In this document: positions 3,562 through 7,061 of the stretch, one piece after another
Position numbering within the stretch: the first letter of the stretch is position 1
How the letters are laid out: every line of letters starts with the position of its first letter
From: an uncultured Candidatus Saccharimonas sp.
GTDB taxonomy: Bacteria > Patescibacteriota > Saccharimonadia > Saccharimonadales > OMJO01
Length of the DNA stretch: 45,482 bases
Direction of reading: 5' to 3'
Assembly (NCBI GenBank): GCA_943353165.1
Contig: CALRAM010000001.1
Coordinates: 1 to 45,482 of the forward strand
Program-made: the position numbers and the translations under genes
The notes under the pieces: generated by a model
Told to the model about the DNA's origin: nothing
The model's input: the letters and a program-made list of their open reading frames with translations, nothing else
Databases searched by the model: none

Positions 3562-3737
3562 AAGTTTTGGCGATTGTTATTTAATTATACAAAAGCAAAG
3601 CTAAACCCCTTGGTGGTTTTCTTTGCTTTAGAATTGTTCACTGTAATATGCGCTTGCATAGCAATGATAATAGCAGAATTTGTATTAATAGTCAAAATAT
3701 TGGCTGGGGATGAGGCCCGGCCTGTCTGGCTGAGCCC

Positions 3738-3754
3738 CCTGTCGTTCCGACAGG
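3738..3754. repeat. GC-rich perfect hairpin 1
   Basis: CCTGTCG-TTC-CGACAGG. Confidence 0.8.
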
Positions 3755-3803
3755 AAGGCCAGGCAAGACGGACAGGGATTCGACCTACCTTTGGCGGAGG
3801 CCC

Positions 3804-3830
3804 GCCCGGCCTCCCTCGGGGAAGCCGGGC
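3804..3830. repeat. GC-rich hairpin 2
   Basis: GCCCGGC ... GCCGGGC. Confidence 0.75.
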
Positions 3831-3835
3831 CTTGC

Positions 3836-3855
3836 GATCCGCCAGCCGGCGGATC
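3836..3855. repeat. GC-rich perfect hairpin 3
   Basis: GATCCGCC-AGCC-GGCGGATC. Confidence 0.85.
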
Positions 3856-3895
3856 TCGCCTCGATCTTTTTTCGGGTGTTCAAATCCTTCATACT

Positions 3896-3938: not shown

Positions 3939-4012
3939 TGGCTGGGGATGAGGGATTCGAACCCCCGATCGTGGAACCAGAATCCACTGCCTTACCACTT
4001 GGCCAATCCCCA
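3939..4012 (-). tRNA. tRNA-Gln (CTG anticodon), CCA encoded
   Basis: Cloverleaf: TGGGGAT/ATCCCCA acceptor, GCC/GGC D-stem, GTGGA-TTCTGGT-TCCAC anticodon arm, GGGGG-TTCGAAT-CCCTC T-arm, GCCA 3' end. Confidence 0.93.
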
Positions 4013-4059
4013 ATAGCTAGGTATATTTTACCTTATAATTAACTATAAATTGTAAAAGT
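4007..4059 (-). repeat. 53-bp perfect direct repeat, copy A (tRNA-Gln 5' end plus promoter region)
   Basis: tccccaatagctaggtatattttaccttataattaactataaattgtaaaagt, identical to 4191-4243. Confidence 0.95.
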
Positions 4060-4081
4060 ACTATACATAAAGTGGTAAGGT

Positions 4082-4186
4082 CTGCCTTGGCAAGCTTTGC
4101 CTGCCCACAGAATTTTGTGACTACAAACAAGTGTGTAATCAGAAAAGTTCTCTTGCAACCCGCCACAGGCGGCTTTCACACTTGGC
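4082..4186 (-). repeat. 105-bp structured repeat, copy 1
   Basis: 104/105 identical to 6920-7024 (single T/C difference at 4175 vs 7013), same orientation. Confidence 0.95.
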
Positions 4187-4190
4187 TTAG

Positions 4191-4243
4191 TCCCCAATAG
4201 CTAGGTATATTTTACCTTATAATTAACTATAAATTGTAAAAGT
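4191..4243 (-). repeat. 53-bp perfect direct repeat, copy B
   Basis: Identical to 4007-4059; lies upstream (minus strand) of the 105-bp element copy 1. Confidence 0.95.
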
Positions 4244-4423
4244 TATATTTGTACTCGGTCTTGCTTGCGGCATAATTAGTTTGCTGCAAGCATTTCGCGA
4301 GTCGTTAATAGCAAATAAGTCACACTTTACGGAGCTGGACATGACAGTGTCTGCTGACGACCCTTACTATAATACATTGGCGTCCTAATCCTTAAGGGTA
4401 ATCTAACTGATTAACTACCGTGG

Positions 4424-4975
4424 TTAGAAGGTGGTTTCGTATTTGCCTATTTGCCCTTGTGCAGGTTCATCCCGTTTCCGTGCCAAGCCAGAATCGACAA
4501 GCCACGTCCATATACGCTCACCATCTTCAGAAAGCATAGAATGCGAAACTAGGCCATAGTTTGCGGGAAGAGCCTTCAGTCCCTCTAGGTATAGGCGTTT
4601 ACCGAACCCCTTACCTCTATATTCGGGGAGGGCACTTACGTCAGTCGAAATGAGCTTTCCTGGAAGCGATGCGTCTTGGCCGTAGACCATAAATGCAACC
4701 GCATTATGGCTTTCAGGTTTGCGTAAGTATAATGATCCACTATTTCCGCTAAAAGGTGGATTAGACGGTAAGTTTCTCTCACACCGCTGCATATTACCAT
4801 CTAGTAAAACCACCTCGGCAACAGGTAATGAGCCGTCTGAGTTAAGCGTCTGATCTAGCCAAACGTTACGTTCGACTATTAACTGTTCCTCACTTAGTTC
4901 TTGTGATTGATCGGGGGCTGTTTCGTTTAAAACCATATCAGCTATTAGTGTATTACCAATAGAACAAGATGACAA
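4424..4975 (-). CDS. GNAT family N-acetyltransferase
   Basis: STDVSALPEYRGKGFGKRLYLEGL: acetyl-CoA binding motif of GNAT fold. Confidence 0.8.
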   Translation of the reverse strand: MSSCSIGNTLIADMVLNETAPDQSQELSEEQLIVERNVWLDQTLNSDGSLPVAEVVLLDGNMQRCERNLPSNPPFSGNSGSLYLRKPESHNAVAFMVYGQDASLPGKLISTDVSALPEYRGKGFGKRLYLEGLKALPANYGLVSHSMLSEDGERIWTWLVDSGLARKRDEPAQGQIGKYETTF

Positions 4976-4992
4976 CGTAGAAAGCGAGCCCT

Positions 4993-5628
4993 ATGACAAA
5001 TCAAAAGTACAAATTGCTTATCCTAGATTACGGTGGAGTTTATTCGTTTGACTATACTTCAGCGTACTTCAGCAAGATTCTATCGGATGCATTTGGTAAA
5101 TCTCCAAATGAAGAAGAGAGAAGAAAGATTATCGAAAAGTCACATACATTCGGAGAGGGTAAATTAACCACAAGTCAGTACATCTCATCAGTAACCAAAT
5201 TGCTAGAAGTTCCTGATTTTCCGACAGTAGAAAAGTTTGAAGGTATAACCATATCTGTGACTAATCCGCCATCTGATACAATGAAAAAGCTTGTCAAAAA
5301 CGTGCGGAAGGCGGGAATTAAAGTTTCCCTACTGTCAGATATGTATATGTTTGAGATTAAGAAGACAAGGCCAACGGGAAGATACAAAGGCTTTGATTAT
5401 ACTGCTTTCTCTGCTGAGTCGGGAATGACAAATCGTAACTCTGATTTTTTCAAACAAACGCTAGGGTACTTTAATATTGCTGCTGAAGATGCGTTATTTG
5501 TTGATGACGGCAAGGCTAATATTGAAGTTGCCCAATCTATTGGCTTGAATACGCTTTACGTCGACAAGCAGATATTCAATAGCGCAGAGCAGTTGGCACA
5601 AAGAATACGTGAGATTTTGCAGGGCTAA
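4993..5628 (+). CDS. HAD family hydrolase
   Basis: LLILDYGGVYSFD; LLSDMY; ALFVDDGKANIEVAQSIGLNTLYV. Confidence 0.8.
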   Translation: MTNQKYKLLILDYGGVYSFDYTSAYFSKILSDAFGKSPNEEERRKIIEKSHTFGEGKLTTSQYISSVTKLLEVPDFPTVEKFEGITISVTNPPSDTMKKLVKNVRKAGIKVSLLSDMYMFEIKKTRPTGRYKGFDYTAFSAESGMTNRNSDFFKQTLGYFNIAAEDALFVDDGKANIEVAQSIGLNTLYVDKQIFNSAEQLAQRIREILQG

Positions 5629-5719
5629 CTGCGCTTAGAAAACCACGATTCAAAGTATTCTTTCAGTTTTTGGCATTCCAATTACATGAGAGCTCTATGA
5701 ATAGTGTATAATCCAACTT

Positions 5720-6124
5720 ATGGAAGTTACGCTTACTACTCCAGCATTGTTGTTTCCCGCTATCGCAATTCTTATGCTTGGTTGGGTAAATAGATATTTA
5801 GGAACGGCAAATGTCATAAGAACGTTCAAAAAAGACTATGATACAGGGTACGCTCGTACAGAAATTGTGTCACAGCTCAACGTACTCAAGAAAAGAATTG
5901 AGCTTTCACGCTACATGATGACTTTCGGTGTAATAGCACTCATTCTTGCATGTATGTCCATGTTCTTGATTTTTGCTAATTTACAGCAAGCTGGAAAAAT
6001 TACCTTTGGTTTATCAATACTCGGAATGATAGTCAGCATGTTTTTATCACTATACGAGACATCTCTGTCTAACAAGGCATTAATACTTGAAATAGACGAT
6101 GTAATTGATAAAGAAATGAAATAG
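5720..6124 (+). CDS. DUF2721-like membrane protein
   Basis: LTTPALLFPAIAILMLGWVNRYLGTANVIR plus two predicted TM segments. Confidence 0.65.
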   Translation: MEVTLTTPALLFPAIAILMLGWVNRYLGTANVIRTFKKDYDTGYARTEIVSQLNVLKKRIELSRYMMTFGVIALILACMSMFLIFANLQQAGKITFGLSILGMIVSMFLSLYETSLSNKALILEIDDVIDKEMK

Positions 6125-6142
6125 CGACCCAGTAACAATTGA

Positions 6143-6703
6143 ATGAATATTTGTCTAGTACGCCATGGCCAAGACGAAGATAACGCCGCAGATATCCTAA
6201 ATGGGAGAAGAAATACTCCACTCACAAAACTCGGTGTTAGGCAGGCTAAGGCGGTCGCATCTCAAATTGATCGGGAGATTAGCGATGTAGCTGCAATCTA
6301 CACGTCCCCACTTCTGAGAGCACAACAGACGGCCAAAATAATTGCTGACAAGATCGGAGTTAATGCTGTCATCAACGAAGATGACCTGATCGAAAGAGAT
6401 TATGGGGTACTGTCTGGAAAATCAAGATCAGATATTCCGAAATACTCTTCAGATAACCTTGAAGTCGACGGGGTATTGTATTTTCTAAATGCAGAAAACG
6501 CCGAGACCTTCCCTGCAACCTACGAAAGAGCCAAAAGAATACTAAAGAAAATACAAGATTCGTATAACAGCACGGTCGTAATGGTTGCCCATAGAGACAT
6601 TTGTGTAATGATTCAAGCTGCTTACAACAACTGGGGCTGGGAAGAAGGCTTGCAGAGAGCTCATATGGACAATGCGACAATACTGCTGCTGAAACAGCAC
6701 TAG
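6143..6703 (+). CDS. Histidine phosphatase family protein
   Basis: MNICLVRHGQDEDN (RHG motif), YTSPLLRAQQTA, VMVAHRDI. Confidence 0.9.
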   Translation: MNICLVRHGQDEDNAADILNGRRNTPLTKLGVRQAKAVASQIDREISDVAAIYTSPLLRAQQTAKIIADKIGVNAVINEDDLIERDYGVLSGKSRSDIPKYSSDNLEVDGVLYFLNAENAETFPATYERAKRILKKIQDSYNSTVVMVAHRDICVMIQAAYNNWGWEEGLQRAHMDNATILLLKQH

Positions 6704-6755
6704 CTTTCAACGCTTTTCCTAGACTTCCACCCCCGTTGCGGTAACTTGTCCTTAT

Positions 6756-6863
6756 ATGGAAAAGCGACCAATAAAATACTGTCTTTATGCCCGCAAATCG
6801 ACGGAAAGTGACGAACGGCAGGTTAAAGAGGACGCTCCTCCAGCTCCTGGTTTTGAAGAGTAG
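6756..6863 (+). pseudogene. Truncated serine recombinase (resolvase N-terminus)
   Basis: MEKRPIKYCLYARKSTESDERQVKEDAPPAPGFEE*: LYARKSTESDERQ is the catalytic N-terminus of large serine recombinases; stops after 35 codons. Confidence 0.7.
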
Positions 6864-6864
6864 G

Positions 6865-7031
6865 TTTCCTTGCATATTGCCACAGGCAATCTTCACCCCG
6901 ATCGTGGAACCATAATCCACTGCCTTGGCAAGCTTTGCCTGCCCACAGAATTTTGTGACTACAAACAAGTGTGTAATCAGAAAAGTTCTCTTGCAACCCG
7001 CCACAGGCGGCTCTCACACTTGGCCACACCC
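6865..7031 (-). pseudogene. tRNA-Gln-like sequence with an insertion in the D-loop and loss of the T-arm
   Basis: Minus strand: TGGGTGTGGCCAAGTG-[~85 nt]-AAGGCAGTGGATTATGGTTCCACGATCGGGG matches tRNA-Gln on both sides of the insert; anticodon CTG changed to ATG. Confidence 0.7.
6920..7024 (-). repeat. 105-bp structured repeat, copy 2
   Basis: 104/105 identical to 4082-4186. Confidence 0.95.
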
Positions 7032-7061
7032 AATTGACAGGGGTAATTGTATCAAGTTTTT

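Follow-up and report, generated by a model that had tools for sequence, protein, structure and literature searches.

A large family of ~95-nt folded inserts in the arms of partial tRNA copies of Saccharibacteria, with a likeness to RtT repeats

The closest described counterpart of the repeat reported here is the RtT element (RF00391) of the Escherichia coli tyrT/tyrV locus, where four units stand in tandem. Compared with tRNA-Tyr, a unit is composed of the reverse complement of bases 70–77, the reverse complement of bases 56–65, a forward copy of bases 59–67, a hairpin body of 67 nt and a forward copy of bases 67–85; the body starts ~89 nt past the tRNA. To our knowledge, no account exists of how these repeats behind E. 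coli tyrT came about. Release of RtT RNAs from tRNA operons has been reported, together with their detection by Northern blotting in A. pleuropneumoniae and a link to the stringent response (PMC4986893). Relatives of RtT reportedly occur beside tRNA-Asn and tRNA-Lys in Actinobacillus (PMC4986893), and rtT-like elements are contained in BIMEs (PMC2965389).

The window, i.e., the whole stretch of DNA that was analyzed (45,482 nt), belongs to a host genome of 639 kb in five contigs. In its preliminary description, two direct repeats of 105 nt, read on the minus strand, were placed in a context of tRNA-Gln sequence. The repeats are real (4082–4186 and 6920–7024, identical in 104 of 105 positions, 99%), both are read on the minus strand, which they share with the single tRNA gene of the window, and tRNA-Gln sequence surrounds both of them (Table 1). 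This context was treated as incidental in the preliminary description, so that the central point, placement inside an arm of a partial tRNA, was missed. The number of copies was also underestimated, since the window contains four of them, including a class A copy and a truncated one (copies 3 and 4, Table 1), and the host genome ~20 diverged ones.

Table 1. Features of the tRNA-Gln region and of the repeat copies in the window
Feature	Position	Strand	Evidence
Intact tRNA-Gln(CTG), host tRNA gene	3939..4012	-	ARAGORN; Rfam tRNA 61.2 bits
Copy 1, class B (upstream of the intact tRNA): D-loop insert of a tRNA-Gln 5' fragment	4082..4186	-	repeat; R1 4083-4180, 91.6 bits
tRNA-Gln 5' fragment TTGGGGACTAAGCCAAG leading into copy 1	4181..4197	-	sequence
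Duplicate of the tRNA-Gln upstream (promoter) region 4007-4064	4191..4248	-	direct repeat 97%
D-loop of tRNA-Gln in inverted orientation (AAGTGGTAAGGT on the + strand), located between the intact tRNA and copy 1	4070..4081	+	sequence
Copy 3, class A (78 nt downstream of the intact tRNA): T-loop insert of a tRNA-Gln 3' fragment	3776..3860	-	R1 32.8 bits, E 5e-6; R2 35 bits
Copy 2, D-loop insert of a degenerate tRNA-Gln	6920..7024	-	repeat; R1 90.7 bits
Anticodon arm and T-stem 5' side of the degenerate tRNA-Gln	6896..6926	-	30/31 identical (97%) to 3963-3993
Copy 4, truncated, in the T-loop of the degenerate tRNA-Gln of copy 2	6863..6897	-	R1 20.6 bits, E 0.01; sequence GGTGAAGATTGCCTGTGGCAATATGCAAGG

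The single intact tRNA-Gln has both a class B neighbor (copy 1) and a class A neighbor (copy 3), the latter immediately preceded by an inverted T-arm (GGATTTGAACACCC) recognized by sequence. The degenerate tRNA-Gln (6863–7036) carries inserts in its D-loop and T-loop alike, and two inserts in one tRNA copy are also present at C1:73373–73592 of the host genome. The region 3700–3870 of the window is GC-rich and contains the repeat CTGTC..GACAAGAAGGCCAGGCAGGACGGACAGG, which is also found beside other insert copies (e.g., C1:74078 and C2:96310).

The element belongs to a large family, undescribed so far, of ~95-nt folded inserts in tRNA arms. A DNA search of the host genome with the 105-mer gave 16 hits, the weakest few of which were no better than chance. 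The covariance model R1, built from nine host-genome copies, gave 22 matches in the same genome at E ≤ 1. Across the order (61 genomes), homologs were detected by R1 in 30 genomes, with 0 to 19 matches per genome, and copy-free relatives were common. A second model, R2, was applied to 287 genomes across the phylum; its matches were confined to genomes of the order, with none in ~260 other Patescibacteria. The earlier statement that no known RNA family accounts for the repeat holds at both gathering and lax Rfam thresholds, at which tRNA was the sole family returned and no other matched the insert.

The pattern of hairpin 3 followed by the 3' half of the T-loop was found in 71 stretches among 85,000 species genomes. 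These stretches belong to Saccharibacteria or MAG records and to Betaproteobacteria (Pandoraea, Herbaspirillum, Massilia, Noviherbaspirillum, Roseateles and others). The host of the window is accordingly most likely a Saccharibacterium. The 19-mer of hairpin 3 was absent from viral contigs, no convincing match to the element was present in phage collections, and the matches in plasmid collections were mostly located on Burkholderiales megaplasmids.

The body (~95 nt) consists of GGTGA, hairpin 1, the linker GCAAG, a two-part stem-loop and hairpin 3. The loop of hairpin 1 has 3 nt in 64 of 82 copies, and that of hairpin 3 is GAA in 68 of the 82. Covariation across homologs is present: in a set of 82 distinct copies taken from other genomes, pairing is seen in 95.4% of the predicted pair cells, two-sided changes occur in 26 of 28 pairs, and the covariation score is 0.550, compared with 0.168 after shuffling and 0.03–0.09 for slid partners. 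Fitting to the structure of the model biases alignments A3 and A4 in its favor; alignment A2 was not fitted in this way. A structure-blind MAFFT alignment of the nine host-genome copies has two-sided changes in 17 of 28 pairs. In the 82 copies, G-U cells outnumber A-C cells (41 and 16, respectively), G-U still being rarer than in tRNA stems, and one G.U pair of hairpin 3 is kept in 76 of them. The strand read here is predicted to fold, be it as RNA or as single-stranded DNA.

Of four helices drawn in the preliminary description, GCCGCC-TGT-GGCGGG and GGCAA-AGC-TTGCC covary, whereas CAAGTGTG/CACACTTG and TTTGT-AGTC-ACAAA gained no support and are replaced by the two-part stem-loop of the middle part. 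The suggestion of a structured ncRNA or a small non-autonomous mobile element, made there, agrees with the structure, the family size and the lack of an Rfam match, although half of its helices were wrong and the tRNA arms were not part of it.

The inserts are accompanied by an intact tRNA. It lies on the same strand within 300 bp in 122 of 160 distinct copies, and one copy has a tRNA on the opposite strand alone. In class A, where the insert is downstream of the intact tRNA, the body mostly starts 65–89 nt past the tRNA, and its 3' flank repeats the same tRNA from C56 to CCA, sometimes also including the terminator (exact over as many as 63 nt); at many loci the C56-to-CCA copy is exact over 15–22 nt. 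In class B, where the insert is upstream, the body follows a copy of the same tRNA that extends from the first base to position 54 (up to 54 nt exact; 54/54 identical to the neighboring tRNA at locus L133), and the intact tRNA mostly starts 36–42 nt after the body. Between the intact and the interrupted tRNA stands an inverted copy of the T-arm. Its alignment score in class A is 9.1 (5.0 for shuffled sequences), and in class B it is exact in 15 of 24 cases (1.2% for shuffled sequences).

The T-arm is the arm of insertion in 94 of 118 assignable copies. These 94 copies retain G53, mostly have T at position 54 and, in 90 cases, retain C56; T55 has been replaced in 79 of them. Placements in the D-arm and the anticodon arm are rare, and both 105-nt copies of the window are D-arm cases. 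Most units are ~190–250 bp long and contain no gene. The host genome possesses an essentially complete set of intact tRNAs (41).

The order of parts is shared with RtT: a tRNA, an inverted T-arm, the 5' side of the T-stem, a hairpin-rich body in the T-loop, and the 3' half of the T-loop continued to CCA. The unit adjoins the tRNA in both cases, and its last part repeats the tRNA 3' end as far as CCA (19 nt in E. coli, 15–22 nt in class A). The tandem units of E. coli have the geometry of class A at a nearly equal distance, with another body. The RtT body of 67 nt enters at base 67 of tRNA-Tyr, whereas here a body of ~95 nt enters at position 54/56, reaches up to 19 copies per genome and occupies D and anticodon arms as well. 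RF00391 gave no match in the whole host genome at E ≤ 10, while E. coli was matched, and none in six element loci at E ≤ 5; R1 applied to E. coli tyrT gave nothing credible. The presence of RtT geometry in many copies, with unrelated bodies and in another phylum suggests a general habit of structured bodies to reside in T-loops of partial tRNAs, and such a habit makes origin and movement testable by comparison of strains.

A further relative is located behind tRNA genes of Betaproteobacteria (Burkholderiales), almost always tRNA-Leu. It shares the inverted T-arm and an identical 19-nt hairpin 3 (GGGGTCGCGGAACGTGACC) joined to the 3' half of the T-loop, and R1 matches it weakly (29–34 bits). 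It differs in its 1–2 copies per genome, in the missing 5' side of the T-stem and in one other hairpin that replaces hairpin 1 and stem 2. When the folds of single units, one per group, were predicted, all three had a multi-hairpin loop closed by a T-arm helix. In Pandoraea (L099, L134, L079/L081) several complete tRNA-Leu genes are found, each with its own terminator and hairpin element, and with 2.5–4.7 kb of genes between them. The genes between these copies are the same in different species, and the arrangement therefore looks like an old tRNA duplication rather than gene cassettes.

The repeat is best regarded as a member of a large family of RtT-type, structured, non-autonomous elements targeted to tRNA arms, a reading to which a probability of roughly 0.55 could be assigned. 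Body identity, with kinship ignored, is 0.672 for different tRNAs of the same genome, 0.622 for the same tRNA of other genomes and 0.623 when both genome and tRNA differ, and the effect of the genome label exceeds that in all 1000 shuffles. Since bodies of one genome are more alike than bodies of one tRNA, their relatedness does not track orthology of the tRNAs; given the small size of the effect, movement or conversion would be old or slow. Patchy occurrence together with relatedness by genome, not by tRNA, points to an element that moves or converts and leaves its host tRNA intact. No transposase linked to the copies was found, and no empty-site counterpart of an insertion was caught.

The element most likely uses tRNA arms as landing sites, folded as RNA or single-stranded DNA. 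We infer non-autonomous mobility with rebuilding of the intact tRNA, and release as RNA. The body could spread from one tRNA gene to another within a genome, via transposition or gene conversion, in the form of a folded single strand, and would land mostly in the T-loop of a partial tRNA copy, where the bodies are found between positions 54 and 56. Each event would leave one tRNA complete, its own promoter or terminator included, and thus would do little harm. By analogy with RtT, excision of the element as a stable, structured RNA would be expected once the tRNA operon is transcribed. A benefit to the host is possible, yet not required.

A bolder version is put forward tentatively, as the less probable case. 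According to it, the elements of Saccharibacteria and Betaproteobacteria, as well as RtT in Gammaproteobacteria, could represent a distinct class of mobile elements which enter specifically the arms of tRNA genes as a folded single strand, a complete tRNA being rebuilt beside them by a forward-inverted-forward rearrangement through the action of an enzyme.

Conservation of the structure at the divergence seen within and between genomes also fits a conserved host RNA. The inserts could be a family of small RNAs encoded in tRNA operons, released by RNase P/E/Z, regulating translation or the stringent response, with gene conversion and local duplication of tRNAs as the means of spread. Strong covariation at ~62% identity, the fixed geometry beside the tRNA and the G.U pair conserved in hairpin 3 argue for such a function, and so does the release of RtT RNAs, Northern-positive and tied to the stringent response (PMC4986893). 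However, half of the genomes of the order lack the element and the others differ widely in copy number (0 to 19 per genome across the order), the tRNA partner is not fixed, and degenerate and truncated copies exist (e.g., copy 4), so that this explanation appears rather unlikely.

Islands and satellites integrating at tRNA 3' ends likewise use the T-loop and directly repeat the 3' half of the tRNA. The body could be the attP core of islands inserted by a tyrosine or serine integrase, with the partial tRNAs as attL and attR halves; the tRNA 3' half is directly repeated here as at attR. Some copies do enclose gene-bearing segments, which measure 2.8 kb in the window and ~0.9 kb, with a single ORF, both in genome G000, that of the window, and in G042. 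In the window a 35-codon ORF on the plus strand (6756–6863, MEKRPIKYCLYARKSTESDERQ...) resembles the N-terminus of a large serine recombinase and stops where copy 4 starts. Most units, in contrast, are cargo-free, ~0.2 kb long and without an ORF, they have a folded conserved body, and an upstream class with the tRNA 5' half exists. No integrase was found in or next to a unit; in G000, PF00239 gave no match and PF00589 one Xer-like gene on another contig, and such a single gene is present in nearly all genomes. Resolvase genes are not associated with the element (21 of 30 positive genomes, 20 of 31 negative ones), conserved covariation over several hairpins is unexpected for double-stranded att cores, and the neighboring genes of the Pandoraea segments are the same across species. 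Remnants of attachment sites are improbable on these grounds, and partial tRNA copies around tRNA genes need not mean scars of islands.

Movement of a REP-type element by a RAYT (Y1 HUH) transposase acting on hairpins is to be considered as well, because REP/REPIN sequences are also short, hairpin-rich and non-coding, and hairpins with 3-nt loops suit HUH enzymes. Y1 transposases are more common in element-positive genomes (13 of 30, compared with 3 of 31 negative ones; Fisher p 0.004, uncorrected for the four families tested and with kinship ignored), and for the two that were scanned the best family, below its cutoff, was NCBIfam REP_Tyr_transpos. However, the host genome with its ~20 copies has no RAYT (PF01797 and an HMM from RAYTs of 20 relatives), and the element is absent nearby at 19 of 20 RAYT loci, the single exception being beside tRNA-Pro. 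Furthermore, the insert is restricted to tRNA arms instead of being dispersed, is longer than REP sequences and has three helices, and a RAYT-driven origin is hardly probable. Several Saccharibacteria (G042, G011, G033, G006, G020, G021) have 2–5 RAYT-like Y1 transposase genes per genome. A weak excess was noted for reverse transcriptase RVT_1 (8 of 30 positive and 2 of 31 negative genomes).

Introns, group I-like or endonuclease-spliced, would explain inserts inside tRNA loops, including the pairs in one tRNA copy, and are nonetheless extremely improbable, since the interrupted copies are partial and mostly lack base 55 (T55 replaced in 79 of 94), so that excision yields no tRNA, while the tRNA set is present intact and Rfam gives no group I or II match. 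MITEs were rejected because the body ends lack terminal inverted repeats and a short target duplication, one or two target bases being replaced and half of the tRNA duplicated. Integron attC sites were rejected as well, as there are three separate hairpins and GTTRRRY boxes were not seen.

A well-supported family of structured RNAs is thereby added to epibionts with tiny genomes. Some copies deviate from the common arrangement. Copies without a tRNA partner (G000:C1:215316–215385, locus L014, and L061:1501–1595) precede an RNA-like region with a long closing stem and without an Rfam match; tmRNA as the partner was rejected, being located elsewhere, and the gene preceding the L014 copy resembles peptidyl-tRNA hydrolase. 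At L154:5155–6157 and L251:326–1499, pairs of inserts of the same tRNA stand ~0.9–1.1 kb apart, each pair around one ORF antisense to the tRNA (198 and 205 aa, respectively).
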